64,000 nt of DNA from Microbulbifer sp. VAAF005 (GTDB lineage: Bacteria; Pseudomonadota; Gammaproteobacteria; Pseudomonadales; Cellvibrionaceae): assembly GCF_030012985.1 (NCBI RefSeq), contig NZ_CP120233.1:4955001-5019000 (forward strand), given 5' to 3'. The notes under the pieces were generated by a model, which was given only the letters and a program-made list of their open reading frames with translations, did no database searches and was not told the origin of the DNA. Positions within the stretch are counted from its first letter, which is position 1. Every line of letters begins with the position of its first letter. Below, piece after piece: positions 28,551 through 47,006 of this stretch. The translations under genes and the position numbers were made by a program.

Positions 28551-28693
28551 CCTTAACAAACACAGGCAGTTTGCCACGGCCCTCCGGACCCCTGCGGGAC
28601 GGCTTACCTTGTGCGCTTTTTTCGCAGGTCGCTCCGCTCCCATTTTTTCGCAAAACGTGCACAAAGTAAGCCGCCCTGCTGTGGATGTTTAGG
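28551..28693 (+). repeat. attC site (long)
   Basis: 143 bases from CCTTAAC to GTTTAGG, with long inner arms (TTGTGCGC ... GTGCACAA, GCCGCCCTGCTGTG). The 165-bp element copy 1 begins inside the right box. Confidence 0.75.
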
Positions 28694-28856
28694 CTGTAGA
28701 AAAACTAATTTATGTCTTTGCTTTCTTAGATGCGATCAAATATTGACCATAAATGGAGATTCTCCGTGAATTCTGATCTAGCTTTCACTGGTGAGTAGGC
28801 TGTTTTTTACGTAGAAGCACAGTACGAAAAGAGGGCTGAGTTTTTCTACACCCTCG
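28692..28856 (+). repeat. 165-bp TIR element, copy 1
   Basis: Starts GGCTGTAGAAAAACT and ends AGTTTTTCTACACCCTCG: 14 of 15 terminal bases are inverted repeats. Placed between an attC right box and the next cassette start (TTATGTG). No open frame. Confidence 0.85.
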
Positions 28857-28886
28857 TTATGTGAATCAGGCTGCTGAGATATAGGC

Positions 28887-29168
28887 ATGGAAGATCTACT
28901 GGGGTTCGTGTTAATTGGCTTGCTCTTAGATGTCACATTTTGGGGGATTAGCTATGCTACTGGCGCTGTATTAACTCCAATAATCTCTTTAGGAAGATGG
29001 AGGCCCGAAAGTATTAGTCTCAATAGAGAGGGTGGGGGTAGGCGCAGTAAACAAAACGGATTCACTCTCATTGAAAGAGATGACCAAGTTTATCTCGGAG
29101 CATTAGCAGTTGCGTTTATCGGTCTGGTTTTTTGGGTGGTAGTTATAATTCTATTGTGTATCACATAA
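28887..29168 (+). CDS. cassette: membrane protein
   Basis: 93 residues, hydrophobic at about 4-35 and 71-92, with a Gly/Arg-rich loop between. Follows a 165-bp element. Family unknown. Confidence 0.65.
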   Translation: MEDLLGFVLIGLLLDVTFWGISYATGAVLTPIISLGRWRPESISLNREGGGRRSKQNGFTLIERDDQVYLGALAVAFIGLVFWVVVIILLCIT

Positions 29169-29245
29169 CAAGTTTATGTTGTCGCCACTTCGTGGCTGGG
29201 ACGTCTTACGCTACGCTCCAGCCGCCCCAAATAAAAGCGTTAGGT
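29163..29245 (+). repeat. attC site
   Basis: 83 bases from ACATAAC to GTTAGGT; the left box overlaps the preceding stop. Confidence 0.85.
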
Positions 29246-29253
29246 ATACAGGC

Positions 29254-29652
29254 ATGGACCAGCTACTCAGAAAGATTTTAGATGATATCCAATCGGTGCC
29301 GGATTTTTCCGGCACCGATCTTAAGGACATAAATGACACGAATGCATTTGGTGATAACGCTCTCCATTGTGTTTGCGTATGGGGTGACATAGATGCTGCA
29401 AAATTGCTTGTAGAAAATGGCATCAATATCGAGCAAAAAGGTGAAGGTGGATTTACACCTTTGAAAGTGGCTGATGATTTTGAGCACTTTGAAATTGTTC
29501 GCTATCTAATATCGAAGGGTGCCAATGTCGAAGCTCTTGAAGCGGAATTCCAGTTTGACCGTGAGGCTAACTCACAGCATATGAGCAATCTACAGGAAAG
29601 CATCAAAGAGCTTGAGCAAAAAGTTAAAAACGAGTGTGGTAAAAATTCCTAA
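29254..29652 (+). CDS. cassette: ankyrin-repeat protein
   Basis: 132 residues. Two ankyrin repeats are clear: NAFGDNALHCVCVWGDIDAA then KLLVENGINIEQ, and GGFTPLKVADDFEHFEIVRY then LISKGANVE. A C-terminal coiled coil (LQESIKELEQKVK) follows. A protein-binding role is likely. Start at 29254 because the longer frame runs back into the attC. Confidence 0.85.
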   Translation: MDQLLRKILDDIQSVPDFSGTDLKDINDTNAFGDNALHCVCVWGDIDAAKLLVENGINIEQKGEGGFTPLKVADDFEHFEIVRYLISKGANVEALEAEFQFDREANSQHMSNLQESIKELEQKVKNECGKNS

Positions 29653-29757
29653 CAAACGTCAGAAATCCGACATTTATTCCGGTGCTTGTTTTGTGTTCGC
29701 TGCGCTCATAATACAAAACAATCCTCTCCAGAAATGCGGTTGTGGCGGACGTTAGCT
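29647..29757 (+). repeat. attC site
   Basis: 111 bases from TCCTAAC to GTTAGCT with TTTTGTGTTCGC/GCGCTCATAATACAAAA inner arms. Confidence 0.85.
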
Positions 29758-29775
29758 GAATAAAGAATTAGAGAT

Positions 29776-30282
29776 ATGGCAGGAATATTTAGCTTTACAT
29801 GTTCATGTTGCGGTGAAGTCCACGAAGGCTCTCCTAGCTTTGGTTTCAAAGCTCCTGATCCGTGGTTGTCACAACCAGATGAAGTAAAAGAGAAAGGAAA
29901 GATCAGTGATGACCTTTGCTATTACACAGATGAAGGTGGCACACATTATTTTGCAAGAGTAATAATAGAGATACCTATCCACGGTGTAACAGACCCATTC
30001 ATGTGGGGTGTCTGGGTATCTTTAAGTGAACAAAGCTTCAAACATTATATCGAGAATTGGGACGAACCAGATACTGGCACAGGTTACTTTGGTTGGTTCT
30101 GCAGTGAACTTCCTTATTATAAAAGCACTCATTCTTTAGCAGCAGATGTAAACCCTCAAAGCGAAGGTTCAAGACCAACACTGTGCTTACATGAAACAGA
30201 GCATGAGTTTTATCATGACTTTATTAATGGTATAAGCATAGAAAAGGCGCAGAATATTGCAGAAATTTGCATGCATGGCTAA
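29776..30282 (+). CDS. cassette: DUF2199-family protein
   Basis: 168 residues matching the DUF2199 pattern as I know it: an N-terminal FTCSCCGEVHEGSPSFGF, the central DDLCYY, FMWGVWVSLSE, FGWFCSELPYY, and a C-terminal HEFYHDFINGIS. CxCC and later residues could bind metal. Function unknown; frequent in integrons and near polymorphic-toxin loci. Confidence 0.82.
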   Translation: MAGIFSFTCSCCGEVHEGSPSFGFKAPDPWLSQPDEVKEKGKISDDLCYYTDEGGTHYFARVIIEIPIHGVTDPFMWGVWVSLSEQSFKHYIENWDEPDTGTGYFGWFCSELPYYKSTHSLAADVNPQSEGSRPTLCLHETEHEFYHDFINGISIEKAQNIAEICMHG

Positions 30283-30360
30283 CAAGTTGTCGCACAATCG
30301 TCCCTTCGGGGCTGGGCAGCCTACACTGCATTTCGGCTGCCTGTGGGCAAAGCGTTAAAG
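30277..30360 (+). repeat. attC site
   Basis: 84 bases from GGCTAAC to GTTAAAG with ATCGTCCCTTCGGGGCTGGGCAG inside arms split around a short loop. Confidence 0.85.
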
Positions 30361-30365
30361 GTCTT

Positions 30366-30641
30366 ATGCGAAACTTCGTGGTTTTAGTACAAGGTGAAAA
30401 TTTCAACTTAGATGTTGAGGGGGCAATTCAACCTGCGGGATTTTTCGCTACTAGGCGTGCCGAGGCCGAAACCGAAGAGGAGGCGTCTAGCCAGGTAATT
30501 TCACAACTACTTACGGAACCAGAAATTAGTGGCAAAGGACTACCCGGCCACACCATACTTGTAAAAGTGGCTCATGAAATGCCCATAGAACACAAGAATA
30601 CATATTCGGGTTTTACTTTCTACCCACTGGAGAAAGCATGA
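30366..30641 (+). CDS. cassette: hypothetical 91-residue protein
   Basis: MRNFVVLVQGENFNLDVEG start, five bases after the attC right box; the longer frame from 30267 runs through the attC. The body has FFATRRAEAETEEEASSQVI and FTFYPLE; a small alpha/beta protein is likely. Unknown function. Confidence 0.7.
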   Translation: MRNFVVLVQGENFNLDVEGAIQPAGFFATRRAEAETEEEASSQVISQLLTEPEISGKGLPGHTILVKVAHEMPIEHKNTYSGFTFYPLEKA

Positions 30642-30642
30642 C

Positions 30643-30732
30643 CTTTAACAAGTTTGTCAACGATCGGCCTTCGGGCTGGGCAGCCTTAAGTGTGGCTTCG
30701 CCACACAGCTGCTCGGTACAAAGGCGTTAGGC
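30643..30732 (+). repeat. attC site
   Basis: 90 bases from CTTTAAC to GTTAGGC, a strong consensus right box. Confidence 0.87.
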
Positions 30733-30743
30733 GATATTAAGTC

Positions 30744-31181
30744 ATGGAGCAAATTCAGATAATCAAAGATAGGTCCAAGCTAGAAGGAACATGTTATATC
30801 GAGCTATGCTTAGGGAAGTACAAGGGTAAGCATTGGGACGAGAGTAGCCTGTTTTTCGATGAAGAGGTTTTTGGTCTTATCGAAGTAATATTTGAAAGGA
30901 ATATTCCTAATTATAACCACTACTGTATGAATGATGCTGATTCAAACTCATGGGGTAAAATATTAACTGAGCTAAAAGAACTGAGTGAGTCACTAAGATC
31001 AGCAAATGACTTTAATGAAATCATCGGAAAAGTGAGTTTTGTATTCGGTGGTACTAGGGACTATTTTCAAAATCATTTCCAGTCTTGCAGAGGCCAGCTT
31101 CAAGAAATGATTTCACAATTGTCAGCTTGGGCAGAAACAAATATTAATAAATATGGGCACATTGCGGTATTGGGCATTTAG
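30744..31181 (+). CDS. cassette: hypothetical 145-residue protein
   Basis: Soluble, acidic, with alternating short strands and helices (CYIELCLGKYKGKHWDES, then WGKILTELKELSESL). No family recognised; size and composition are like those of immunity-type proteins. Confidence 0.65.
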   Translation: MEQIQIIKDRSKLEGTCYIELCLGKYKGKHWDESSLFFDEEVFGLIEVIFERNIPNYNHYCMNDADSNSWGKILTELKELSESLRSANDFNEIIGKVSFVFGGTRDYFQNHFQSCRGQLQEMISQLSAWAETNINKYGHIAVLGI

Positions 31182-31193
31182 GCAAGATTCAGC

Positions 31194-31271
31194 GCCTAAC
31201 AAGCGGCAGCAGTCGGATAGTTTTTCCACTCCTTCGTCGCTCCAAAACCCCCTCTGTGCCAAACGTTAGGT
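31194..31271 (+). repeat. attC site
   Basis: 78 bases from GCCTAAC to GTTAGGT, near-perfect boxes. Confidence 0.88.
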
Positions 31272-31277
31272 ATAGGT

Positions 31278-31769
31278 ATGAATCGAGATTACGTTCTAAA
31301 ATATTCTCCGGCTTTACTACAGTCAGCTGCTCTTTCCTATATAAAACAACTAATCGGGCCAGTATTCCCAGTCGTTTTTATTGGTTTGTCGATATACTCC
31401 GGCATTCAAGTATATAATGAAGACTATTCTTGGAGGGTAGGCTTGGCGGGCGGCGGTGTATTTATTGTTGGTGCAATAATGATTTCATTATTTATCGGCC
31501 ACTTGAAGCATGCTAAAACAACGGCCAATGAGCTGAGAAATGGAGAAACTATATTTGGTTTATCTGAATCTGGTATTAGTTTTAGTTCACCGCTAGGTTT
31601 CGCAGAAATACCATGGGGTCAGATATCTTCACTTCACCAGCATAAAGACTTTTTCATCCTTTTAGTTAACCGGGGTAATTATACATCGGTACCTCTTGCA
31701 TCCATTGATGATGAGGCTATGGAATTTATAAGAAAATCTGTTCTCAAGCATGGTGGAAAAGTTGCTTAG
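31278..31769 (+). CDS. cassette: YcxB-like membrane protein
   Basis: 163 residues: two membrane segments (about 28-45 and 54-75) followed by a cytoplasmic PH-like domain with FGLSESGISFSSPLGFAEIPW, then ISSLHQHKDFFILLVNRG. This matches the YcxB-like pattern known from many Gram-positive and Gram-negative proteins. Role unknown. Confidence 0.75.
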   Translation: MNRDYVLKYSPALLQSAALSYIKQLIGPVFPVVFIGLSIYSGIQVYNEDYSWRVGLAGGGVFIVGAIMISLFIGHLKHAKTTANELRNGETIFGLSESGISFSSPLGFAEIPWGQISSLHQHKDFFILLVNRGNYTSVPLASIDDEAMEFIRKSVLKHGGKVA

Positions 31770-31869
31770 CAAAAACCAGTATGACAGCCTTCGTAAACTT
31801 TGCTTGAAAAGCAGCAAAAAATTTCAATTCGATGTGTGTGGTTGGTGTTACGTGACTTTTGGTTCCTAG
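31770..31869. other. degenerate attC region
   Basis: No left box; GTTACGT at 31847 could be a right box. The region between has a GCTTGAAAAGC hairpin. Confidence 0.35.
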
Positions 31870-32451
31870 ATGGATACGACAAGTTTAATGAATAACGCTC
31901 AGAGTCGGATTGAGTGTGCATTGTTAAATTTCAATGATCTTGAGGCGATCAATCGCGAGTTAGCGTCAATCTACAACCTAATACAATCTGATATTCCCTT
32001 AGCCATCCCAGTAAGTTTGGAAGTTGTTGAAACTAAGTCGCTGCAATATAGAATCTTTTATCAAGCTGGCTATGGAATGTCAGTTAATTCTATTTTGATT
32101 TCTCAAGGAGAATTTGAATCCTACCTCTGGTCTGATTGCGATGGTTGGTGTCTAGATGACGATTACTGGGATGTTAGAGAAATTGCCAGGCATCTATCCA
32201 AAATCCCTGTAATTGTTGATTATCCGAAAAATGTGGGTGAACTGTATAATAATTTTGTCCAAGGGCTTTGGGTATTTTCCCTTAGCAACGTGCCAAGCTT
32301 CGGTGGTGAGCCTCCAAGAGATTTGGAAGAAGTGATCTCATGGGATCAAAAAAATGTTCTTGTTGGAACTGAGGTTTCAAACATGGAAATCGTACCGAGG
32401 GAGACATGGGATAATATTTGCGAGCGTGAAAGTACATGGTTTAGTGGCTAG
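31870..32451 (+). CDS. cassette: hypothetical 193-residue protein
   Basis: Soluble, acidic, with several Trp and Asp residues (YLWSDCDGWCLDDDYWDVREI). The repeated short acidic strand-turn pattern is reminiscent of immunity-type folds, but no family is recognised. Confidence 0.65.
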   Translation: MDTTSLMNNAQSRIECALLNFNDLEAINRELASIYNLIQSDIPLAIPVSLEVVETKSLQYRIFYQAGYGMSVNSILISQGEFESYLWSDCDGWCLDDDYWDVREIARHLSKIPVIVDYPKNVGELYNNFVQGLWVFSLSNVPSFGGEPPRDLEEVISWDQKNVLVGTEVSNMEIVPRETWDNICERESTWFSG

Positions 32452-32459
32452 TACGTCGT

Positions 32460-32548
32460 ACGTAACAAAACAATTAACTTCGCTCCAGCCACTGCGTGAT
32501 TTCGGCCGGACCTCCGGCGCCTCCGGCCGGCTATTGCGGGCGTTAACT
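32460..32548 (+). repeat. attC site
   Basis: 89 bases from ACGTAAC to GTTAACT with the GC-rich inner arms GGCCGGACC and CGGCCGGC. Confidence 0.8.
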
Positions 32549-32564
32549 GTTGTAATGGGTAAAT

Positions 32565-32906
32565 GTGATATCTGATAAATTCGAGAGAATTGAAAACCCA
32601 GACTGGGAGCCTGATGCCCTTATGCAAGTATATTTTTCTGATAAAGATACCACCGTAAAAAGTGGATACCGACCTCACTATAAGGTTAAAGCCGACTATC
32701 TTACAACTACGATTTATTGGTTTATTGATTCAGGGATTACGGAACCTAACAGGCGCGCTCTAGCGTTTGTCAAATTCACCACATCAGAGGCATATCCAAA
32801 ATGCCTAAAGGTAGGTTCCAATCTAGAGGTTCGCGAAGGCTCAAGAGTAGTTGGCCATGCTAAGATACAGGAAATATATAATGACCGACCACGTAAAAGC
32901 AGCTAA
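32565..32906 (+). CDS. cassette: EF-Tu domain-3-like protein (GTG start)
   Basis: 113 residues. The segment GYRPHYKVKADYL ... PKCLKVGSNLEVREGSRVVG ... AKIQEIYND follows the pattern of the third (beta-barrel) domain of elongation factor Tu, without any GTPase domain. As EF-Tu domain 3 binds tRNA and EF-Ts, a tRNA- or EF-Ts-related role is conceivable (inference). Confidence 0.7.
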   Translation: MISDKFERIENPDWEPDALMQVYFSDKDTTVKSGYRPHYKVKADYLTTTIYWFIDSGITEPNRRALAFVKFTTSEAYPKCLKVGSNLEVREGSRVVGHAKIQEIYNDRPRKSS

Positions 32907-32980
32907 TAATCATAGGGAAGTTTCTATGGGCCTTCGCGGGACAGCCTACGCTTCGATCGCCCGCGCTGTGGACGTTAAAA
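32898..32980 (+). repeat. attC site
   Basis: Right box GTTAAAA at 32974 with GGGCCTTCGCGGGACAGCC inside; the left box (AGCTAAT) is weak. Confidence 0.65.
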
Positions 32981-32982
32981 GT

Positions 32983-33606
32983 ATGAAGAAGGAATACGCA
33001 CAATACATGATTTCATGGATTGAAAAGATTGAGTCACAATTTCAATCCCCCATTTCTGACTCCTATGAAGTAATGAAGGCTTATTGGTCAGGATCAGGTG
33101 TGGACTTCAATGAGGGTGAAATGAAGGGAAGATTGTGGGCATGGGTAGATGGTAATAGTGGGCCTAGGGAGCCTCTGAATAACTCCGTGATACCTCTGGC
33201 ATGCAGAGCGGTTCACAATCAAGGCGCGGCTTCGCAGGAATGTCTAGACCTTTCAAGAAGTCGCAACGCGGAGTGTGAATCGCTCTGCAAGCCCCGAAGG
33301 GCGGGCCTTGAAGGCCACAGCTGCTGCGTTGCAGCTCTTGCAAAGGGCTACGGCCATTCGCGGCGAGCCGCGCCTAACATCTGCAGCCTTCAAGACCCGC
33401 AGAGGCATTACGGAGTTATTCAGAGGCTCCCTAGAATAACAAGTGACCAAGAAATGGCTGTGACACATATGGTTTTATGCCTTGCCTACAAAGACGAGGC
33501 AACTATGGATGAGATCAAAGATATAGGATTCTTCGAAGATCTATTAGAGCAGTATGGGTATTCTAGGTCAGAGATAAATCGTACCTATGATCAGCAAAAT
33601 TTTTAA
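32983..33606 (+). CDS. cassette gene carrying an in-frame MITE
   Basis: An N-terminal MKKEYAQYMISWIEKIESQF ... GRLWAWVDGNSG and a C-terminal ITSDQEMAVTHMVLCLAYKD ... YDQQNF flank 89 codons supplied by a MITE plus its duplicated CTAG. The total is 207 residues; without the insert 118. The MITE translation is open throughout, so a longer protein with a foreign Cys/Arg-rich middle may be made. Start at 32983, two bases after the attC right box. Parent family unknown. Confidence 0.7.
   Translation: MKKEYAQYMISWIEKIESQFQSPISDSYEVMKAYWSGSGVDFNEGEMKGRLWAWVDGNSGPREPLNNSVIPLACRAVHNQGAASQECLDLSRSRNAECESLCKPRRAGLEGHSCCVAALAKGYGHSRRAAPNICSLQDPQRHYGVIQRLPRITSDQEMAVTHMVLCLAYKDEATMDEIKDIGFFEDLLEQYGYSRSEINRTYDQQNF
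33168..33430. mobile_element. MITE, 263 bp, with CTAG target duplication
   Basis: Terminal inverted repeats GGAGCCTCTGAATAACTCCG and its complement bound the element; CTAG is duplicated at both sides (33164-33167 and 33431-33434), as for some IS5-family elements. A subterminal TGCAGAGCG ... CGCTCTGCA hairpin lies inside. It has no gene of its own. Confidence 0.92.
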
Positions 33607-33677
33607 AAACTAAAGGCACCGGACGTAAAAATCGTCGCTTCGCTTTGGTATTGCCGCAGGTGCTCTAATCGTTAAGG
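33603..33677 (+). repeat. attC site
   Basis: Right box GTTAAGG; the left box is degenerate (AAACTAA). Inner arms GGCACCGGACG and CAGGTGC. Confidence 0.6.
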
Positions 33678-33683
33678 TACTTC

Positions 33684-34028
33684 ATGAGTAAGCTCGTCAC
33701 TCTATTACTGCTAAGTAGCAATGCTTTTTTAGCTCAGGATCTAGAAGGCACTTGGGAGGATAGGAGTGGGGGCATATTTGGTGGTGAATCGGGATGGGAT
33801 AAGTGTGAGTTTAGATATGACAACACTTTTCTGTGCACTAACTATCCAAAACTAGGCAGTTTGGTTTTACCCTTTGAAGGAACTTGGAAATTAATAGGGA
33901 GCACACTCACTCTTCGTTTAAATAGTTCTCATATAATAAAAACTCATATTGCCGAGATTGATCAGGATTTCTTTAGGGGGCTGGTAGAAGGTGGTAATAA
34001 ATTTACGTTTAACAGGAAAAAACCTTAA
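33684..34028 (+). CDS. cassette: exported lipocalin-like protein
   Basis: 114 residues: signal peptide (MSKLVTLLLLSSNAFLA), then a small beta-barrel-like pattern with LEGTWEDRSGG, LPFEGTWKLIGSTLTLRL and FTFNRKK. Two cysteines, CEF and CTN, could form a disulfide. Likely periplasmic; ligand unknown. Confidence 0.65.
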   Translation: MSKLVTLLLLSSNAFLAQDLEGTWEDRSGGIFGGESGWDKCEFRYDNTFLCTNYPKLGSLVLPFEGTWKLIGSTLTLRLNSSHIIKTHIAEIDQDFFRGLVEGGNKFTFNRKKP

Positions 34029-34141
34029 CAAGGCAATGCAGTTGACGTCTTACTTTGTGCGCTTTTTACATAGTCGCAGAACTCCAATATGCATGTAAAA
34101 AATGTACGCAAAGCAAGCCGCCATCGATTTCGACGTTATGT
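34023..34141 (+). repeat. attC site (long)
   Basis: 119 bases from CCTTAAC to GTTATGT; GTGCGC ... GCATGT inner palindromes. Confidence 0.75.
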
Positions 34142-34155
34142 ATTAGGAGAGTTCC

Positions 34156-34562
34156 GTGTCACCACTAGAAATTGAAAAAAAGGTACGTGACAAACTCAAT
34201 AAACTCATTGGTACCACGGCAAAGAAGGAAATACTAAGTCTTTCTGAGGGGGGCCATCACACGAGTTTGATATTTTTGAGGAAGGTAAAATTATTGGTGG
34301 AGTCAGTACATCTCTATGGTTCAATAATCCTAATGCGAAAGGTAAGCAAACTGGCAATACTTCAGGTCAGGATCGTGCGGCAACTGAAATCCTGTGGCTC
34401 ACTCTTTGGCAAGGTCCTGAACGAAGGCTTCATATCCTTACCGATAAAGAAATGGCAGATAGAATCTTCAAAAAATTTAATGGTGCAGTTTTCCCCAACA
34501 ATGTCGAAATCCAGCACTTTGATCTAGGCTCGGGTAGCTTCAATCATGTTGGAACATTGTGA
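34156..34562 (+). pseudogene. cassette: hypothetical gene with a G-run frameshift
   Basis: GTG start, MSPLEIEKKVRDKLNKLIG to LSEGG, then the good frame continues as HEFDIFEEGKIIGGVSTSLW ... GQDRAATEILWLTLW ... HFDLGSGSFNHVGTL. Adding one G to the G6 at 34248-34253 yields a 135-residue protein. The uncorrected frame runs to 34527 but reads as noise. Function unknown. Confidence 0.7.
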
Positions 34563-34564
34563 AA

Positions 34565-34660
34565 AACAAAACAAGTTGATACTGTTTGTTTCGGCGCTGC
34601 GAGCCTCTACCAGATAGTCCACGCTTAGCGTGGCCTACCGCAGATTAAGGTGCTCAGGCT
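34565..34660 (+). repeat. attC site followed by element copy 2
   Basis: AACAAAACAAG begins a weak site with CACGCTTAGCGTGG arms; the right box is altered to GTGCTCAGG, where the 165-bp element starts. Confidence 0.5.
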
Positions 34661-34820
34661 GTAGAAAAACTAATGTGCATCTATGACCCTTTAAGTATGG
34701 TCAAATATTGACCGCATGTGATGGTTCTCTGTGAATTCTGATTTAGATTTCACTGATAAATAGGCTATTTTACACGTGAAGCGCAATACGAAAAGAGGAA
34801 TGAGTTTTTCTCCACACTCG
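34657..34820 (+). repeat. 165-bp TIR element, copy 2
   Basis: GGCTGTAGAAAAACT at the left, AGTTTTTCTCCACACTCG at the right, 164 bases, strongly similar to copies 1 and 3-5. Confidence 0.85.
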
Positions 34821-34831
34821 TTACATGCCTT

Positions 34832-35176
34832 ATGGAAAATGACGTCATAGAGTTCGTATCGAACTTTACAGGGATAGCAGCAGAGAAGATCCACCTAGAA
34901 ACCCTAGTGAACGACGACCTGGCTGTCGATGGTGATGATGGTGATGAGTTCCTCATCGAATTCTCTCATAAATTCAATGTAGACATCTCTGGTATCGATC
35001 GTGCGTACTTTGGCCCAGAAGGTATCTCTTTAAACCCATTTGAAGGCATCTGGGCCTTTTTAAAAGGATTTTTGTATGGATGTAAAGGAGTCACTAGAGA
35101 AAACTGGGATGACATCGCCCCTCTTCCTGTATTGGTTTTGGTTAACTCGGCTAAGTCCGGTACTTGGGAGGACTAG
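34832..35176 (+). CDS. cassette: DUF1493-family (acyl-carrier-like) protein
   Basis: 114 residues; VIEFVSNFTGIAAEKIHLET, then DLAVDGDDGDEFLIEFSHKF, then YFGPEG, fit DUF1493. The region around DGDDGDEF resembles acyl carrier proteins but lacks the DSL serine. Such proteins occur with immunity-like cassettes. Starts 11 bases after a 165-bp element. Confidence 0.8.
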   Translation: MENDVIEFVSNFTGIAAEKIHLETLVNDDLAVDGDDGDEFLIEFSHKFNVDISGIDRAYFGPEGISLNPFEGIWAFLKGFLYGCKGVTRENWDDIAPLPVLVLVNSAKSGTWED

Positions 35177-35267
35177 GCATATAATAGGGCGCTCAATGCA
35201 GCGCAGTGCTACAAAGGGCACGGACTCTAGCGGCTACGCAGCTTTCGCCGCGTTAGCGGGGGTTGCA
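35164..35267 (+). repeat. degenerate attC site
   Basis: A left box is not clear; right-hand candidates are GTTAGCG and GTTGCAA near 35254-35267. Confidence 0.4.
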
Positions 35268-35291
35268 AGTATCTAAAAAGTACGTATTTTC

Positions 35292-37006: not shown

Positions 37007-37252
37007 ATGAAACTTACTGACATAAGAACGGAGATTGGAAGCGACTTATTGAAGAAGTTGGTCAAGGAGCATGGCTGGCGGATTCAATCTGAATATAATT
37101 TAGATGCTTTCTATAAAGGAATAGACTACGATTGCTATATTCTCGAAAAGCATGGTGACGAAATACATATGGAGTGGACAAATTGGTTAGAGTGGGAAAT
37201 ATCTGGTGAGCAAAGTACCCTCAAAAGTTTGTCCATTACGTATGGTTTGTAG
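37007..37252 (+). CDS. cassette: hypothetical 81-residue protein
   Basis: MKLTDIRTEIGSDLLKKLVK ... EWTNWLEWEISGEQ; a mixed alpha/beta protein with no membrane segment. Unknown. Confidence 0.6.
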   Translation: MKLTDIRTEIGSDLLKKLVKEHGWRIQSEYNLDAFYKGIDYDCYILEKHGDEIHMEWTNWLEWEISGEQSTLKSLSITYGL

Positions 37253-37283
37253 ACTTCGCAACTTCAGAATTGGGCAAGAACAA

Positions 37284-37369
37284 CCATACAAGTGCATCAA
37301 CTTCGCTCCAGCCTCTACGAGGCTTCTGCCGGACAGCCCATGCTTCGCGCGGCCTGCCGGGCGTTAAAT
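37284..37369 (+). repeat. attC site
   Basis: Right box GTTAAAT; left box ACCATAC is weak; the centre has CTTCGCTCCAGCC and GGACAGCCC arms like other sites here. Confidence 0.65.
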
Positions 37370-39923: not shown

Positions 39924-39926
39924 TAC

Positions 39927-40000: not shown

Positions 40001-40015
40001 GGTAATATTTAAAGC

Positions 40016-40282
40016 ATGAATAATATTTTCCTGGCAATTTACAATCTAGCTGTGCTATTCGGTGTCCTTTTAATGGCGATAATGGCTGGCTTATGGTGGA
40101 CCTTTGACGATGGCAAACTATCTGAAGGGGTCGTTTTTCTTGTTGGAACCTGGGTGTTGGCTTTTAACTTTCTTCCAGTCCAGGGGTTGAAGTGCTTAAA
40201 AGAGCCGGTGGTAAAATTTTACTACTTGCCGCTGGCAATACTTGGATTAATTGGTTTCATTTATGGTGTGGTGCAACATTAA
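40016..40282 (+). CDS. cassette: small membrane protein
   Basis: 88 residues, three hydrophobic segments (about 6-28, 38-53, 66-85). No family. Confidence 0.65.
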   Translation: MNNIFLAIYNLAVLFGVLLMAIMAGLWWTFDDGKLSEGVVFLVGTWVLAFNFLPVQGLKCLKEPVVKFYYLPLAILGLIGFIYGVVQH

Positions 40283-40371
40283 AATAACAAGTTTACCAAA
40301 CATCACTACGGCTAAAAAACGATCTTCACTGGGCGCTCAGAAAGCGCGCGCCGCTTATAAAATTGTTCAAT
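40282..40371 (+). repeat. attC site
   Basis: AAATAAC left box; right box GTTCAAT is atypical. Confidence 0.6.
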
Positions 40372-40389
40372 TCCTCTTGGAGATTTGCA

Positions 40390-41261
40390 ATGGATTTTGA
40401 TTTCTTAAAGCCGAAGGAAAGGTTGCGACTCATGGACTTGCTCAAGCAAGTGGGTATTGATGTAAGTGATTGAGGTAACTATAAGCGAGGAGAAGAATAC
40501 GCGGCTAGTAATCCAAAATACTGCTATGAGTGGACCTTTCAAGATCATGATAGCGAACTAATTGTGCTTAATTTATGGTACGAAAATATTAAGCTTCGCG
40601 AAGAAAGTATCATCCAACAATTGAACATGAGAACACTTGCAGAAGAAATGAGTTGCTCCCCCAAAGAAGAAGGGCATTCGAAATGGACTTTGCGCTTCAA
40701 AAAGCGGCACGACTTAATTGGCCTGTGAGAGTAATAATTTGTGATGGTACCCTTAGGGACGACACTCCAGATAGAAAGCGTTCGGAAACAGAAACAAGAA
40801 TGCTTGATGATGAACCGTGGACATTAGAGAGTTACGATAGAGATTCAGGAGAGTGTATTTTAGTTAGAGGCATTGATGGTCCAGCGAAATATATAGATCA
40901 ATTTGACGAATCAATTGTTAAATCAGCTCCGGTAGTGAGAGAAGAAGTAGCTAGCAACCAGTATTCTCGAAACCCTGACGTTAGACGGAGTGTACTGGAA
41001 AGAGCAAAAGGCTACTGCGAATTTTGTGGAGCTGAGGGGTTTAAAACCTTAGCAGGAGCTAGGTATCTCGAAACACACCATATAGTTCCATTGTCAGAGT
41101 TGGGGGAGGATTCAGCTAGCAATGTCATTGCCCTTTGCCCTAACCATCATCGCCAAGCTCATTATGGGGAAAATCGTGATTTGCTCAGAGAGAAATTTAT
41201 GATTCACGTATCAAAATTGAACAAGTCAATACACTCGACCGCTGAGGCAGTGGCTGATTGA
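40390..41261 (+). pseudogene. cassette: HNH endonuclease gene, nonsense plus frameshift
   Basis: The first frame reads MDFDFLKPKERLRLMDLLKQ to VSD, then TGA at 40471 where the family pattern has Trp, then GNYKRGEEYAASNPKYCYEW and LNLWYEN. A C5 run at 40658-40662 shifts the frame; one added C gives QRRRAFEMDFALQKA and the rest (PVRVIICDG). The HNH core CEFCGAEGF ... THHIVPL ... NVIALCPNHHRQAH is intact in 40653-41261. This is the McrA/5-methylcytosine-type HNH family pattern. Two lesions argue for loss of function, although the 202-residue C-terminal ORF might be made alone. Confidence 0.8.
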
Positions 41262-41281
41262 GGCATTATGTGTAGGCCGTT

Positions 41282-41632
41282 ATGAGATCGATAGTTCTAC
41301 TTCTATTTATAATTTCTAGTAACGTCATGGCATCTGGCACATGTATCTGTATAGGAGGAGCGACCGTGGTTAGTACTTCTGACGCAGCGGTTGAGGTTTC
41401 TATCTCTGAGGGGATAGCTTGTGAGGGTAATGGTTGTTGTATAACTGAGGGCTCAGATCACTCTGTCTTCTTTGAAAAAGAAAATAGCGTAGAACCTTTC
41501 CAACACTATATGTCAAAATCGGGGGCATACTTGAAAAACATGCCAAAATCATACGAATTTGGTTTCGTCTACTCGTGCCGTACAAGCGAAGAAGGTGGTT
41601 TTTCACAGTGGCTTATAGAACCACAGAAGTAA
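41282..41632 (+). CDS. cassette: exported Cys-rich protein
   Basis: 116 residues with signal peptide (MRSIVLLLFIISSNVMASG) and cysteines in CICIG, CEGNGCC and CRT, likely disulfide-bonded in the periplasm. The ATG overlaps the GTTATGA box at 41279; the attC before it is nearly absent. Confidence 0.65.
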   Translation: MRSIVLLLFIISSNVMASGTCICIGGATVVSTSDAAVEVSISEGIACEGNGCCITEGSDHSVFFEKENSVEPFQHYMSKSGAYLKNMPKSYEFGFVYSCRTSEEGGFSQWLIEPQK

Positions 41633-41636
41633 AAAT

Positions 41637-41778
41637 ACATACAAGCGCAAGTAGTTGGTACAGCCTTTCGGGCCTCCGAGGGACGCCCAACGCCATGTAT
41701 GTTTTGCGCAGGTCGCTGCGCTCCCAGATTTGTACAAATCGGGCATAGTATTGAGTGCCCCTGTTGCGGGCGTTCCGG
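41637..41778 (+). repeat. attC site (long)
   Basis: Left ACATACAAGCGC, right GTTCCGG; about 142 bases with TTTGCGCAGGTCGCTGCGC arms resembling the site at 28551. Element copy 3 starts in its right box. Confidence 0.6.
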
Positions 41779-41941
41779 CTGTAGAAAAACTAATGTACAT
41801 CTATGACTCTTCAAGTGTGATCAAATATTAACTGCATATGATGATTCTGCGTGAATTCTGATTTAGCTTTCACTGATGAGTAAGTTATTTTTCACTTAGA
41901 AGCACAATATGAAAAGAGGGCTGAGTTTTTCTACACTCTCG
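41777..41941 (+). repeat. 165-bp TIR element, copy 3
   Basis: GGCTGTAGAAAAACT ... AGTTTTTCTACACTCTCG; 165 bases, followed by TTAAGTG. Confidence 0.87.
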
Positions 41942-41963
41942 TTAAGTGACAAGGGGATAGTCA

Positions 41964-42212
41964 ATGAAATCATTCATCATTAATCTTGTCGGTTTAGTTG
42001 GGTCTTGGTATATGATTGATCTTACTTCCGAAAACTCGCTTAATTCTGTTTTTGCTCCGTTATTATTTACAGCTTTCCTAATTTCTAGTGTACTGTGGTT
42101 TATTGTGAAGTTCGGGGTAACTCAGGGCTCTAGCTCTGGTGGTTACTATGGCAGTGGTGATTCTGGTAGTTTTGGAGGTGGAGATGGAGCGGGTAGTGAT
42201 GGTGAGTGTTAA
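41964..42212 (+). CDS. cassette: membrane protein with Gly/Ser-rich tail
   Basis: 82 residues, two hydrophobic segments (about 4-20 and 30-48), then a low-complexity GGYYGSGDSGSFGGGDG tail ending in Cys. The tail type recurs in the 28290 cassette. Unknown. Confidence 0.65.
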   Translation: MKSFIINLVGLVGSWYMIDLTSENSLNSVFAPLLFTAFLISSVLWFIVKFGVTQGSSSGGYYGSGDSGSFGGGDGAGSDGEC

Positions 42213-42215
42213 ATC

Positions 42216-42299
42216 ACTTAACAAGCGCATGTTGCTCGCCGTTATAGCGACCGGACAGCTTATACTACGCTTTACCAGCCGCAAATACGAATGTTATAT
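42216..42299 (+). repeat. attC site
   Basis: 84 bases from ACTTAAC to GTTATAT with GCTCGCCGTTATAGCGACC arms. Confidence 0.78.
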
Positions 42300-42314
42300 T
42301 CACGAGGGAAATGA

Positions 42315-42605
42315 GTGAAGAAAGTCCCGATATTTATTTCAATATTCCTCATTCTTGTGCAAGCTGGTTGTACAACGCAGTCACAAATTAAGCTTCTACA
42401 GGGAAAGGATGAGTTTAGAGGGGAATTTCTTGTAGATTGCAAAGGTATAAAAACAATTTACGAGGGGCACAATAGCTCAGGCTACTATTTTGAGGGCTAT
42501 AGCGGTGGAGCGTTCACAAAACACTCAATTAGCTTGTCAGAAATGACATCGTGGCTCAAAGAGTGTGGAGTTGATCTAAGTACCGTAAGCCAAATAATAG
42601 AGTAA
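42315..42605 (+). CDS. cassette: small lipoprotein (GTG start)
   Basis: 96 residues with lipobox LVQAGC at about residue 19 and a small acidic mature domain holding two more Cys. Probably anchored in the outer membrane. Unknown. Confidence 0.68.
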   Translation: MKKVPIFISIFLILVQAGCTTQSQIKLLQGKDEFRGEFLVDCKGIKTIYEGHNSSGYYFEGYSGGAFTKHSISLSEMTSWLKECGVDLSTVSQIIE

Positions 42606-42712
42606 CAACAATACTAGCATTGCATAACTAGTAAAGCAGCACCGCCCACTACATGTGACTGAACAGTTTTAAGTAGCTGCGCTGCTCGAAATCTACCGCT
42701 GTTTGCGGTGTT
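42602..42712 (+). repeat. degenerate attC region
   Basis: GAGTAAC and GCATAAC are left-box candidates; TGTTTGCGG at the right is far from consensus. Confidence 0.4.
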
Positions 42713-42733
42713 TTGCAACATGAGTACTTAAGC

Positions 42734-43117
42734 ATGAAAGAAGTTCAAGAAGTTGGCAGAAGCCTGGTTGCCGAAAAAGAAAGCAATGACTTTTGCTTTT
42801 CTCATGAAGGTCAGTTGTACAGATACAAGAAAGGCCAAGTTAAATTGCTGTGCAAGGCAAATCCTAAACTAAAGTACACAATTGATAAAGGGAAAAGCGG
42901 TAATAGATCTTACCACTATGTATTTGAGGTTATGTCGCCATTAAGAGCTGGGCCCACGGAAGTTGTGGTCCCATCAGTCAAAATGGCTTCTAAATCTGGT
43001 TTTTCGAGCACTTTAGCAACTTATGTTCCGTTTGCTCAGTTTGTTGGCAGCCAAGATGACTTCAAGTCTTACTGTTTCCAGATTTTTGAGAACGTGACAG
43101 AAAAAGAAAGTCCATAG
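42734..43117 (+). CDS. cassette: hypothetical 127-residue protein
   Basis: MKEVQEVGRSLVAEKESNDF start; Lys-rich (YRYKKGQVKLLCKANPKLKY), ending SYCFQIFENVTEKES. A TTG at 42713 would add seven residues. Unknown. Confidence 0.6.
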   Translation: MKEVQEVGRSLVAEKESNDFCFSHEGQLYRYKKGQVKLLCKANPKLKYTIDKGKSGNRSYHYVFEVMSPLRAGPTEVVVPSVKMASKSGFSSTLATYVPFAQFVGSQDDFKSYCFQIFENVTEKESP

Positions 43118-43120
43118 AAA

Positions 43121-43206
43121 TGTCAAGCACGAACGCAAGCAGAACTGGCTGGACTTACATTCCGCAGCTTCGCTGCTCCATTTCGGAACGTGTTGGCGGC
43201 ATTATG
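43121..43206 (+). repeat. degenerate attC region
   Basis: AATGTCAAGC ... GGCATTATGCC with CGCAGCTTCGCTGC hairpin; both boxes mutated. Confidence 0.4.
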
Positions 43207-43216
43207 CCTCAATAGC

Positions 43217-43525
43217 ATGAATATGAAATTTGCAATGATTTTTAGCTTCACTCTGACTGGGTGTGTAAGCTTCAATATGGGCGATGGCATGTTCATTGTT
43301 CAAGGCTCTACAGCTGGAGATTGCCTCCTCTCAATATCAAAGCAAGATGACAGCCTTGTGAGTCACAATATTCGCGAGGTGGCCGGATTGTTTAGCCAAG
43401 ATTTTGTGGTTTCACCTAACGAGGAAAAATATTCAGCGTCATTATTGTGCGATAATCAAGTTTTGCGACAGAAGACATTCGTATACCCAACTGAAATCAG
43501 GGTGGGTGGTGTACTTCATCTTTAA
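43217..43525 (+). CDS. cassette: small lipoprotein
   Basis: 102 residues, lipobox FTLTGC at about residue 15. The mature part is beta-rich with two Cys (DCLLS, LLCDN). The upstream TTG start is less likely because it lies in attC DNA. Confidence 0.65.
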   Translation: MNMKFAMIFSFTLTGCVSFNMGDGMFIVQGSTAGDCLLSISKQDDSLVSHNIREVAGLFSQDFVVSPNEEKYSASLLCDNQVLRQKTFVYPTEIRVGGVLHL

Positions 43526-43616
43526 CTGCGTAGTTCAGAGGCATGACAATATAGGCCGGGTGCTACGGCTCCTGTCAAAGCCTTCGCGGGGCAGCCTACG
43601 CTGCGGGTGTTTAGGC
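43521..43616 (+). repeat. attC site
   Basis: TTTAACT to GTTTAGG, with GCCTTCGCGGGGCAGCC inside; element copy 4 starts in the right box. Confidence 0.6.
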
Positions 43617-43778
43617 TGTAGAAAAATGAATGTGCATCTATGACTCTTCAAATATGATTAAGTATCGACCACAAGTGGTGATTTTACGTGAATTCTGATT
43701 TAGCTTTTACTTGTGAGTAGGCTATTTTTCACGTAGAGGCACAATACGAAAAGAGGGCTGAGTTTTTCTACATTCTCG
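43614..43778 (+). repeat. 165-bp TIR element, copy 4
   Basis: GGCTGTAGAAAAATG at the left (one base shift from the other copies), AGTTTTTCTACATTCTCG at the right; 165 bases, followed by TTAAGCA. Confidence 0.85.
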
Positions 43779-43800
43779 TTAAGCATAAATAGGTGGGAAG

Positions 43801-44151
43801 ATGTTACAGGCTGCAATAACTGCGTTGATACTGGTAGGTATCTACAAGTTAATTGATGGAAACAATGCCGAAAGTAGTGACTCTGATATTGATTGGTGGA
43901 TTGCATTTGTCTTCGTTTTTGCACCAATGATTCTTATATTCATAATCAGTTTAGTAGTTGTAGGAAACGATTTTTCGGGGATTATTATTTTATCGGCATA
44001 TTCCTTATATTTTATTATTCCGTTTATCTATTTAAAGAAAGTGCTAGGGTATTCATCAAAAAAATCTCTAAAGTGCTCTGTATGGATTCCGGTTACGGTG
44101 TTGGCTATAGAAATTCCATATACTTTGATTTTCGGCGTACACAATGCTTAA
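43801..44151 (+). CDS. cassette: membrane protein
   Basis: 116 residues with hydrophobic segments near 4-18, 32-53, 60-78 and 94-111. Family unknown. Confidence 0.65.
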   Translation: MLQAAITALILVGIYKLIDGNNAESSDSDIDWWIAFVFVFAPMILIFIISLVVVGNDFSGIIILSAYSLYFIIPFIYLKKVLGYSSKKSLKCSVWIPVTVLAIEIPYTLIFGVHNA

Positions 44152-44227
44152 CAAAGTTGTGTTGTCGCCTTCGGTTTGAATAACCTACTGCGTAGGTCGC
44201 CACATACAACGACGTAATGCGTTATAA
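44146..44227 (+). repeat. attC site
   Basis: 82 bases from GCTTAAC to GTTATAA with TTGTGTTGTCGCC / GGTCGCCACATACAA arms. Confidence 0.75.
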
Positions 44228-44249
44228 AACATAGAGTATTGATTGAAGA

Positions 44250-44495
44250 ATGAGCAAAGAGTAACCAAATAATCCGCTACATGGTATTACTCTTGAGAAA
44301 GTTGTTACCCGTTTGCAGGAGCACTATGGCTGGGATGGCTTGGCAGATAGGATTAATATCAGTTGCTTTAAGAGTGACCCATCAGTTAAGTCTTCGCTCA
44401 AGTTTTTACGCAAAACCCAGTGGGCGCGAGATAAAGTTGAGAATCTGTATATCTCAACTTTTGAAAAGAAATCGCCGTGGGCTAATCGTGAATAA
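44250..44495 (+). pseudogene. cassette: VF530-family gene with nonsense codon 5
   Basis: ATG AGC AAA GAG then TAA, then [22 protein letters not shown] ... [11 protein letters not shown] ... [17 protein letters not shown] to a natural stop. It is the VF530 (DUF2132) family, small basic putative DNA-binding proteins. A CAA-to-TAA change would explain codon 5. No good internal start follows, so it is probably silent unless read through. Confidence 0.85.
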
Positions 44496-44566
44496 GCACT
44501 ATTTGGCAACGACATGGATGTCGCAGTGATTAGACAGGGACAGGCAGGTAGCAAGGGAATCAATGT

Positions 44567-44641
44567 GATTAACCAAGCCCGTTACTTTTTTCTGACCAAA
44601 AAATCGCCAGATTGGCCGGCCGGTTATTACGGGGGTTAAGT
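44567..44641 (+). repeat. attC site
   Basis: GATTAAC to GTTAAGT, 75 bases, with GATTGGCCGGCCGG arms. Confidence 0.6.
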
Positions 44642-44654
44642 ATCCAAGATAATT

Positions 44655-44957
44655 ATGCATTGTTGTAAAGAAATGGGAAAAAGAGTCGAGCTTAACTGTA
44701 GGGATCACAAGAATAACTATGAGTGTCCAGACACCCTTGTTTCCTTTATCCCAAAGTTTGATGAATATGGTCTCATTATTCATGATGGTGGTAGTAGTTC
44801 TATTTCTATCAGGTTTTGTCCATGGTGTGGCCAGGAGCTACCGGGCTCAAAACGAGATAAATGGTTTGATAAGTTAGAGAGTATGGGATTTGATGATCCT
44901 ACTGAACAAAATATACCCGAGGAATTCAATAGTGATGCTTGGTTCCGAAACACTTAA
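44655..44957 (+). CDS. cassette: DUF6980-like zinc-binding protein
   Basis: 100 residues; MHCCKEM, CRDHKNNYECPDTLVSFIPKF and FCPWCGQELPGSKRDKWFDK carry three Cys pairs, consistent with a zinc-ribbon fold. The CPWCG-x-LP-SKRD-WF pattern belongs to a small family common in integron cassettes. Function unknown. Confidence 0.78.
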   Translation: MHCCKEMGKRVELNCRDHKNNYECPDTLVSFIPKFDEYGLIIHDGGSSSISIRFCPWCGQELPGSKRDKWFDKLESMGFDDPTEQNIPEEFNSDAWFRNT

Positions 44958-45035
44958 AAGCGCAGGTTGTTCGCCGCTATCGTAGCCGGACGACTTCCGC
45001 TATACTCCAGCCGCGAAAATTTCGAACATTAGCCT
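44951..45035 (+). repeat. attC site
   Basis: CACTTAAAAGCGC ... CATTAGCC; both boxes off by one or two bases from consensus. Confidence 0.55.
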
Positions 45036-45056
45036 GTAAATAGAAATATATCAATC

Positions 45057-45512
45057 ATGAAAAGTTGGATAGTATTTATAAGTACATTGGTATTAGCAGC
45101 AATTCACCTGCTTCTTGTAGTCATTGAGTATCCCAAATACTCAGTTAAAAGTACGTTTTCAGCTTGGCTGCATATAGAATATCTTGTTATTTTCACTCTT
45201 TCTTTTTTGTGCCTCTTTGCTTTATACAAGAAAAACTCCCTTTCATATAAAGGTGCAGTTGCATTTCTATCATTTGGGATTTTAATGCAACTGAAAAATA
45301 CAGGTGTGTGGTTAATGCTTAGCTGTGGTATAGGTGTAATAAAATGCCCCGCTAATGCGGGTCCAATTAGTATATTTGTAGGTTGGGTTATGTTTGGGTA
45401 CTTACTATTTCTTATATATTTACTAAATAGCTATATTAAATGCCCAAGGCTGAAGTCCTGGTACAAGCTAACAACTAATTCAAGAGGGGCGCCGCGAAGC
45501 GGAGCCCTTTAA
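45057..45512 (+). CDS. cassette: membrane protein
   Basis: 151 residues with four hydrophobic segments (about 4-22, 42-58, 67-85, 103-126). The last 15 codons are attC DNA. Unknown. Confidence 0.65.
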   Translation: MKSWIVFISTLVLAAIHLLLVVIEYPKYSVKSTFSAWLHIEYLVIFTLSFLCLFALYKKNSLSYKGAVAFLSFGILMQLKNTGVWLMLSCGIGVIKCPANAGPISIFVGWVMFGYLLFLIYLLNSYIKCPRLKSWYKLTTNSRGAPRSGAL

Positions 45513-45525
45513 TTGGGTGTTCAGA
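45466..45525 (+). repeat. attC site (short)
   Basis: 60 bases from AGCTAAC to GTTCAGA with GGCGCCGCGAAGCGGAGCC inside; element copy 5 starts in its right box. Confidence 0.65.
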
Positions 45526-45692
45526 CTGTAGAAAAACTAATGTGCACCTATGACCCTTTAAGTTCACTTGGTTTCAACTATTAACCATAAATGGTGATTC
45601 TACGTGAATTCTTATTGAGCTTTCACTGATGAATAGGCTATTTTTCATGCAGATGCACAATGCAAAATAGGGGTGAGTTTTCTATACCCTCG
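45524..45692 (+). repeat. 165-bp TIR element, copy 5
   Basis: GACTGTAGAAAAACT ... GAGTTTTCTATACCCTCG; 169 bases, the most divergent full copy, followed by TTATGTT. Confidence 0.82.
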
Positions 45693-45713
45693 TTATGTTG
45701 CTCCGAGAACATT

Positions 45714-46091
45714 ATGAATTTTAAAGAAATAGAAGAATCCCTAGATATCGAACTTCCTCAAAGCTACAAGGAGTTCATTTCAAACTATCCAGATATGCTG
45801 TTAGCTGATGGTTTTTGGGCTGCGGAAGTAGAGCTTCTTAACAATCAAAATCGACTGGTAGAACTCAATCGGTTTGTAAGGTTGCACCTAGATATTGAAC
45901 TTAGCTACTTTTTGATTGGAGGAAGTGGCTGTGGAGATTATTACTTTATCGACATAAGTGATGAAGAATCGCCCGTGTACTTTTGGAATCATGATATAGC
46001 AGGCTTCGACGATGATGAAGAATCGGTAAATCTGATTGAGCATGCAGGAAAGTTGCTCGAGTCTTATACTTATGTCATCAAAAACACATAA
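45714..46091 (+). CDS. cassette: SMI1/KNR4-family protein
   Basis: 125 residues: MNFKEIEESLDIELPQSYKE then FISNYPD at the N-terminus, and LIGGSGCGDYYFIDISDEES with VYFWNHD further on, the SMI1/KNR4 (SUKH) pattern. SUKH proteins act as immunity proteins against diverse nuclease and deaminase toxins in many bacteria; no cognate toxin is seen here. Start is set after the 165-bp element. Confidence 0.85.
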   Translation: MNFKEIEESLDIELPQSYKEFISNYPDMLLADGFWAAEVELLNNQNRLVELNRFVRLHLDIELSYFLIGGSGCGDYYFIDISDEESPVYFWNHDIAGFDDDEESVNLIEHAGKLLESYTYVIKNT

Positions 46092-46157
46092 CTAGTTTGG
46101 GCAGTACGGACTGTGTGGCCCAGACGTGATACATGTGCTGCAGCCAAAGGCATTATA
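46086..46157 (+). repeat. attC site
   Basis: ACATAAC left box; right part GGCATTATAAA has A for the first T-preceding G. Confidence 0.6.
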
Positions 46158-46172
46158 AATTATGAGGACCTT

Positions 46173-46571
46173 GTGATTTACATAAAGTATTTGTTTGCAA
46201 TCCTGCTTCCTTGGTTAGCGTTTTTTACAGGTGACAAGATCTATGGCTCCTCGCATTTGATGTTCCATCATCCCTGCGTTCAATCAGAGTATGGTTGCTG
46301 GTTAATGGATTTTATGAGCTTTGCCATAAAAGGGGCGTTGCTTGGCATCCTTTTAGGTTTGGCGAGATTTTCAGCCAGTCAGCTTAAAACCTCTGTAGTA
46401 TCGGCGGTGGTATTGTTGACTATGGTTACTGTAAGGCTAGGCGCTGCTCGAATGGAAGGAGTCTTAACTGTCGTACTGGATTGGTACTATTGGCTAAGCT
46501 TGTTTGTCCCATTATTATTAGCTGCGGTGGTTTTTTACTTAGGTTCACGATATGTGGCAGAAAAGTTATAA
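46173..46571 (+). CDS. cassette: membrane protein (GTG start)
   Basis: About 132 residues beginning VIYIKYLFAILLPWL, four hydrophobic segments. GTG at 46173 with GAGG upstream is preferred over the GTG at 46113, which lies in the attC. Confidence 0.6.
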   Translation: MIYIKYLFAILLPWLAFFTGDKIYGSSHLMFHHPCVQSEYGCWLMDFMSFAIKGALLGILLGLARFSASQLKTSVVSAVVLLTMVTVRLGAARMEGVLTVVLDWYYWLSLFVPLLLAAVVFYLGSRYVAEKL

Positions 46572-46640
46572 TAAATTGTGGAAGCACGGATGCTTTACGC
46601 AGGGCCTGTTTAACAGCAGCCCCCGCACTCCGTGTTAACT
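46566..46640 (+). repeat. attC site
   Basis: Right box GTTAACT; left box degenerate; arms GCACGGATGC and CGCACTCCGTG. Confidence 0.6.
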
Positions 46641-46644
46641 TCAT

Positions 46645-46797
46645 GTGAATATAGAGAGAATTAAGCGAAAGAGGCAAAAGAATACTCAAGAGCAAAATTC
46701 TCTTGAAAAATATTCAATGAAAGAAGGAACCTTAGGCTTTCTAATTTCCATGGAAGGCTACAAATATTTTTTTGGATCTTTGATATCTATGGAATAG
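46645..46797 (+). CDS. cassette: 50-residue peptide (GTG start)
   Basis: MNIERIKRKRQKNTQEQ ... EGTLGFLISMEGYKYF ... SLISME. Five bases after an attC right box, like its neighbours. Basic N-terminal half, hydrophobic C-terminal half. Real but unproven. Confidence 0.45.
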   Translation: MNIERIKRKRQKNTQEQNSLEKYSMKEGTLGFLISMEGYKYFFGSLISME

Positions 46798-46872
46798 ATA
46801 TGAGAAGTGGCATTCTTATTTCTCTATATATTTGTCTTGAGCAAGGTTCAGTAAAAAAATGTAATGCAATAT

Positions 46873-47006
46873 GACTAACTTCAGAATAAAATACTCAACT
46901 ACACTCCGGCCGTAAGCGGCCTAATTATTCCTTGTCGATGAGTCGACTGTTTCACGTAGAAGCACTAAATAAAAATTGGGATGAGTGTGTCTAAGTCCCG
47001 TTATAA
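46873..47006 (+). repeat. attC-like site containing partial element copy 6
   Basis: GACTAAC begins the region; from 46937 to 47000 the sequence follows the right 60% of the 165-bp element (GATGAGT ... TTTCACGTAGAAGCAC ... GGGATGAGTGTGTCTAAGTCCCG). GTTATAA follows. The left end of the element is missing. Confidence 0.6.

Follow-up and report, generated by a model that had tools for sequence, protein, structure and literature searches.

The window analyzed here, 64,000 nucleotides of the Microbulbifer sp. VAAF005 chromosome, contains an array of integron gene cassettes in which a short non-coding element recurs at cassette junctions. A reading of the sequence alone had described five full copies and one partial copy, and all were recovered, the full ones as TT-to-CTCG spans at 28688-28856, 34653-34820, 41773-41941, 43610-43778 and 45520-45692. 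As that reading had also proposed, each copy is preceded by an attC-like end and followed by the next cassette. The copies are short, lack a transposase and have terminal inverted repeats, as is expected of a miniature inverted-repeat transposable element (MITE), and the longest closed ATG open reading frame (ORF) in 13 aligned copies encodes 24 aa. Of the two explanations first left open, an ORF-less cassette or a MITE that targets attC, the second was supported by full-size IS1182 elements, whose ends and target are those of the short copies, and by one copy outside any attC. From these sequence comparisons, the element is very probably a MITE mobilized in trans by a DDE transposase of the IS1182 family that is specialized on integron attC sites.

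Alignment of the 13 copies placed a terminal repeat of approximately CAGGCTGTAGAAAAACT at the left and approximately AGTTTTTCTACACCCTC at the right. The edges of homology are abrupt: upstream lies an attC-like stretch plus G, and downstream lies GTTA (GTCA once), followed by unrelated sequence. Immediately outside the repeats, nine copies have GTT on the left, three GCT and one GGT, and 12 of 13 have GTT on the right; the GTT is in most cases followed by A and corresponds to the central triplet of the attC R' box. Several details of the sequence-only reading are amended. The copies are real, but each begins 4 bases earlier than had been given, and the length of 165 bp, counted between the outer GTT triplets, is exact only for copy 2. 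Common terminal inverted repeats are likewise present, with the 12-base ends exact on both sides in copies 1 and 3 but imperfect in the others (one mismatch on the right of copy 2, two on the left of copy 4 and a worn right end in copy 5). At the boundary with the next cassette, CTC of the CTCG belongs to the element and GTTA represents the target and the next cassette. With copy 1 as a query against the whole genome, the other four window copies were found at E values of 4e-31 to 9e-44, far above chance; a search of a 400-nt stretch detected the fragment of the sixth copy (70 aligned nt, 74% identity, E 1e-9).

Copies of the element in the window and adjoining parts of the cassette array
Feature	Position	Strand	Remarks
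MITE copy 1	28690..28855	+	166 bp; GTT at 28687-28689 and 28856-28858
MITE copy 2	34655..34819	+	165 bp; left triplet GCT; right GTT at 34820-34822
MITE copy 3	41775..41940	+	166 bp; GTT at 41772-41774 and 41941-41943
MITE copy 4	43612..43777	+	166 bp; GTT at 43609-43611 and 43778-43780
MITE copy 5	45522..45691	+	170 bp; GTT at 45519-45521 and 45692-45694
3´ fragment of a sixth copy	46937..46999	+	followed by GTTA; alignment extends to 47003
attC of the cassette preceding copy 1	28550..28687	+	R'' GCCTTAAC at 5´ end; copy 1 lies in the R' core
attC of the cassette preceding copy 3	41641..41772	+	stretch with many genus-wide matches
Cassette downstream of copy 3	41942..42296	+	relatives in G003, G014, G062 and G068

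Queries with copies 1 and 3 located 13 distinct places, besides the fragment, on the chromosome (5.40 Mb, one contig). Eight of these are outside the window, one of which, at 164 kb, is truncated, and by eye they also follow attC-like ends; for most of the 13 own-genome copies the attC-like end was recognized by eye (the detector described below cannot confirm it). The attC stretch before copy 1 has many matches across the genus, and the attC upstream of copy 5 scored 14.5 and 12.5 in two detector runs. In a survey of 48 genomes of the genus, four had matches to the element, namely this genome, G068 (at five places, including one of 70 nt), and G010 and G062 (a single place each), and a weak 32-nt match in G016 appeared in one of two genus searches only. 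Pairwise identity among eighteen full copies is 59-92%, and most copies thus look old.

Empty sites in relatives, suggested earlier as a check, are present with a single GTT at the junction. Six relatives of the cassette after copy 3 were found in four genomes, the junction being filled in one and empty in five. A second empty junction with a single GTT was seen at a cassette of G010 whose counterpart in G068 holds a truncated copy. Cassettes with the element and cassettes lacking it agree in the base at which the insertion lies. Both the target-site duplication and the empty sites expected of a MITE are found. For the cassette after copy 3, the elements of the window and G062 are 69% identical and the cassettes 86%, suggesting separate insertions at one point. 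A search outside integrons, likewise proposed, was answered by one copy in G068 (L294, G068:C12:151770-151938), which splits an IS1182 transposase gene and has GTT on both sides. The joined flanks match the homologous insertion sequence (IS) of G000 at 88% without a gap at the junction, and are also gapless at the junction against more distant IS1182 copies. The target, AAGC-GTT-AGCT, is attC-core-like and forms a very short inverted repeat. This MITE is nested in an IS whose ends are of the same kind as those of the presumed parent.

To characterize the presumed parent, genome contigs were scanned with a 20-nt pattern comprising the right end and target; this gave at least 115 stretches, from which 80 loci (82 matches) were examined. 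These 80 loci are mostly from Gamma- and Betaproteobacteria, with one from Desulfuromonadales and one from a Nitrospirae bin. Among the 82 matches listed are 12 elements of 1.4-2.0 kb, with a left repeat upstream and a transposase between the repeats, and 20 short elements of 98-223 bp, 14 of them 157-176 bp. The terminal repeat type, (C/G)AGGCTGTAGAAAAAC, is common to the MITE and the full-size IS1182 elements, and the MITE thereby shares its ends, as a MITE should, with 12 repeat-bounded elements that carry a transposase. The transposase of L042, the one protein checked, passes the NF033551 transpos_IS1182 model narrowly (273.4 bits against a cut-off of 270) and contains the PF13751, PF05598 and PF01609 domains; the transposases of the 11 other 1.4-2.0 kb elements are 40-90% identical to it over the best piece. 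A left GTT is visible in 11 of the 12 full-size elements, the twelfth starting at the edge of its locus, but left ends in the 82-match set were chosen with a bonus for GTT, so this pairing favored GTT and is not an independent count. With a profile of the MITE body from which the ends had been removed, three of 17 short elements of other genomes matched at E <0.01, all inverted: L041 of Marinobacter (E 3e-5), L076 of Oceanospirillum (5e-4) and L065 of Microbulbifer taiwanensis (8e-3). The best of 340 shuffled bodies reached E 3.5.

Within the VAAF005 genome, four transposase matches correspond to a decayed IS at 620 kb, which keeps both ends with GTT outside each, and to a 5´ remnant (4.02 Mb) that has a left end of the same kind. 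Judging from these remains, the parent IS in this genome is probably dead. Genome G309 has five IS copies of 1735-1737 bp (L280-L284) with GTT on both sides, one directly followed by another such end, and the element there is possibly active. The same ends and target are also seen in shorter elements, of ~98-109 bp, of other bacteria (L044, L087, L104, L286 and L287). A plasmid search found no relatives of the MITE; relatives of the transposase at E 1e-60 were two Pseudoalteromonas records (43% and 40%), in the first of which a right end resembling the repeat (GTTATTCTACAGGCTC-GTTAG) follows the gene, while no left end was found. No solved structure related by sequence was found.

Target preference was assayed in 369 genomes from across the class by a search blind to the target, the query being 15 bases of the repeat and nothing else. 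Matches were obtained in 39 of the 369 genomes, and one match to a reversed control pattern was among those listed. The outer triplet was GTT at 41 and AAC at 40 of 94 distinct ends, that is, GTT lay outside 81 of the 94, which come from the loci taken from this search, part of the listed places. Complete elements, picked for a left GTT, have a right GTT in 20 of 23 cases. We also scored the left flanks of ends with an outer GTT, using an attC hairpin detector anchored on R'' and ending at G, with C/T-GTT sites of the same loci as controls. A score of at least 9, one of seven thresholds, was reached by 19 of 40 left flanks and 28 of 830 controls (p 1e-15); thresholds of 7, 8 and 10 also separate flanks from controls. 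A strict R'' motif was present in 10 of 30 flanks of the target-pattern set and in 33 of 800 controls (p 7e-7), but this set and the repeat-only set overlap (L256 agrees with L098 in contig and element length, for example, and some contigs of G294 are as long as those of L048, L072 and L086) and are not independent. Since the preference is visible with the terminal repeat alone, the claim is checkable in any genome collection. On the sequences compared, attC is the main insertion site, with other sites also used.

Several observations weigh against a transposon of this kind with this target. Thirteen of the 94 ends do not have GTT outside, and several of these, in which the usual terminal GA is missing too, look like chance matches. 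Fourteen of the 40 left flanks score 0, including those of the full-size IS L280 and L281; one of the 14 (L292) is an empty flank counted as a miss, and L241 and L278 look like attC with an altered R'' or a very short one, whereas L280, L281 and L289 do not. The attC detectors are crude, and two early versions separated poorly; an unanchored detector gave no separation at 8-9 and separation at 10 or above. Sites of the own genus are not separated (3 of 13 at 9 or above compared with 25 of 287, and 1 of 13 with the strict R''), and ordinary cassette junctions of the window also score low. At the G068 insertion, the homologous IS of G000 has GGT where G068 has GTT. A profile of the whole element puts L041 and L091 in direct orientation (E 7e-10 and 9e-9) and L076 and L065 inverted; as L041 is direct when the ends are kept, the inversion is firmest for L076 and L065. 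All complete IS share one orientation, which would not be expected from perfect inverted repeats: the transposase is directed toward the downstream cassette in 12 of 12 elements of the pattern set and in the eight of the repeat-only set, one element probably being shared by the two sets and five of the eight coming from one genome. L063 and L068 have a transposase match on the opposite strand; neither was counted as complete, and the far end of L068 was not found when sought. By eye, the MITE body and the IS have only the terminal repeats in common, so parentage rests on ~17 bases plus the target.

For an attC-targeting MITE, the transposase of a full-size IS would bind the shared ends and cut the MITE out. 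The MITE would then be inserted at the G^TT core of an attC, possibly while that attC is folded into a hairpin, and staggered joining would duplicate GTT. As each edge carries GTT, the crossover triplets upstream and downstream would be kept, and IntI might excise the element together with the downstream gene as a single composite cassette. Short GCGTTA-like sequences are expected to be common in a genome, and IS1272 of staphylococci is a member of the IS1182 family. Given that IS1272 is reported to seek stem-loops (PMC5678879) and that the 13 own-genome copies, by eye for most, follow attC-like ends despite the expected abundance of such short sites, the hairpin perhaps assists targeting.

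An alternative that we consider unlikely is that the MITE is kept as a mobile promoter of the next cassette, transposition only having brought it there. By eye, the 3´ half of the element is the best conserved, and a CTACGTGAATTCTG-like motif is retained in related bodies across genera, but this conservation is also explained by shared descent, and scans at two of the five window copies were no better than shuffles. The earlier suggestion of a promoter for the next gene thus gained no support from the consensus scan, in which copies 3 and 1 gave 1 and 0 matches compared with 0.7 and 0.2 for shuffled sequences; the single match lies downstream of the element. The scan decides little, since a section heading of a Vibrio study states that such promoters are not identifiable in silico (PMC11014356).

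Much less probable is that the element is an integron cassette without an ORF that IntI moves from one G^TT point to another. The G^TT edges on both sides, the empty junctions at G^TT and the single orientation of all aligned copies in the own genome would be in line with a cassette, and gene-less promoter cassettes, which are likewise ORF-less units in cassette arrays, are known in Vibrio (PMC11014356). Those are described there as cassettes, however, whereas the MITE shows no attC of its own: the detector, the sensitivity of which is limited, scored 0-5.5 at the 3´ ends of 13 of 13 copies, with zero in 10. Moreover, the same ends enclose an IS1182 transposase, and neither the inverted bodies in other genomes nor the copy inside the G068 transposase gene, which contradicts this explanation, agrees with the fixed orientation and IntI-only movement of a cassette. 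Least probable of all, and hardly to be entertained, is a non-autonomous IS1111-attC (IS110-type) element with a guide RNA, which would account for the lack of a gene, the attC target, the outer bases beyond the repeats and six PF02371 matches in the genome, but was rejected as a parent on its ends, given that the ends of the IS1111-type copies that were read are different (TATGGTT...) and that these copies by eye insert on the 5´ side of attC, that elements with the ends of the MITE carry an IS1182 transposase, and that no conserved fold was found (two-sided change in 2 of 18 predicted pairs, consensus energy -2.4). A structured or guide RNA was also rejected as a candidate, since one copy had z scores of -1.1 for its bottom strand as DNA and -1.2 for its top strand as RNA, and covariation was slight; a search of window positions 22000-50000 against Rfam at E up to 0.5 matched group II introns only. 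Of the six PF02371 matches (L013-L018), those that were read lie on the 5´ side of attC-like sites, and a stretch at ~37250-37300 in the array resembles the left end of an IS1111-type element.

Returning to a MITE of IS1182 parentage, the full-size relatives resemble that family in passing its model. To our knowledge, the attC-targeting elements known are the IS1111-attC elements and group IIC introns. IS1111-attC elements such as ISKpn4 and ISPst6 differ in their RNA-guided transposase, which is of another type, in their ends and, by eye, in the side of attC that they enter. MITE-like structures are said, in the title of a 2009 paper by Gillings, to flank and move a Tn402-like class 1 integron; by that title, they differ in flanking a whole integron. 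Group IIC-attC introns, described as mobile elements inserting at attC (PMC7923331), are similar in their insertion site and differ in having a ribozyme and a reverse transcriptase. IS1272 is ~1.9 kb with 16-bp repeats; it reportedly targets inverted repeats, which are potential stem-loops, and replaces its stem-loop without target duplication (PMC5678879), whereas here GTT is repeated and attC retained. For Paracoccus ISPse1, also of the IS1182 family, the values 16/16 and 4 in a table can be read as the repeat length and a 4-bp duplication (PMC3281130). In the literature searched, as far as the texts were accessible, we found neither an IS1182 element nor a MITE that was said to target attC, which is weak evidence of absence given that subscription papers and ISfinder were outside the search.

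The one integron-integrase match above cut-off lies at 1.63 Mb. It is separated from the window by ~3.3 Mb along the record, or by ~2 Mb on a circular chromosome, and the array in the window is therefore an attC cluster without a neighboring integrase. The window also holds a second MITE-like repeat of ~272 bp (33163-33434) with near-perfect inverted ends (CTAGGGAGCCTCTGAATAACTCCGT), which is 99% identical at five other listed places in the genome and has matches in many genomes of the genus; by its sequence identity, this repeat is recent, unlike the attC MITE. A group II intron at 22422-24239 (-), with Rfam D1-D4 and D5 matches, adjoins the array. By eye, transposase-like genes lie at ~26550-27900 and 54490-55640 (IS4-like and IS3-like), and a tandem hexamer repeat (TTCGGG and variants) lies at 53630-53790 in a predicted minus-strand reading frame.

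A wider proposal, which we find plausible if somewhat doubtful, is that an IS1182 DDE transposon clade with several MITE families in Gamma- and Betaproteobacteria is specialized on attC. Its transposase would recognize the folded attC hairpin and join at the IntI crossover triplet, each insertion would preserve working recombination points and create a composite cassette for IntI to spread, and the clade would form a third attC-parasite lineage beside the IS1111-attC elements and group IIC introns. If true, a DDE transposon duplicating the IntI crossover triplet would be a simple model for studying how DDE enzymes locate structured targets. Repeated non-coding modules would enter cassette arrays in this way, and annotation may take such MITEs for cassettes.

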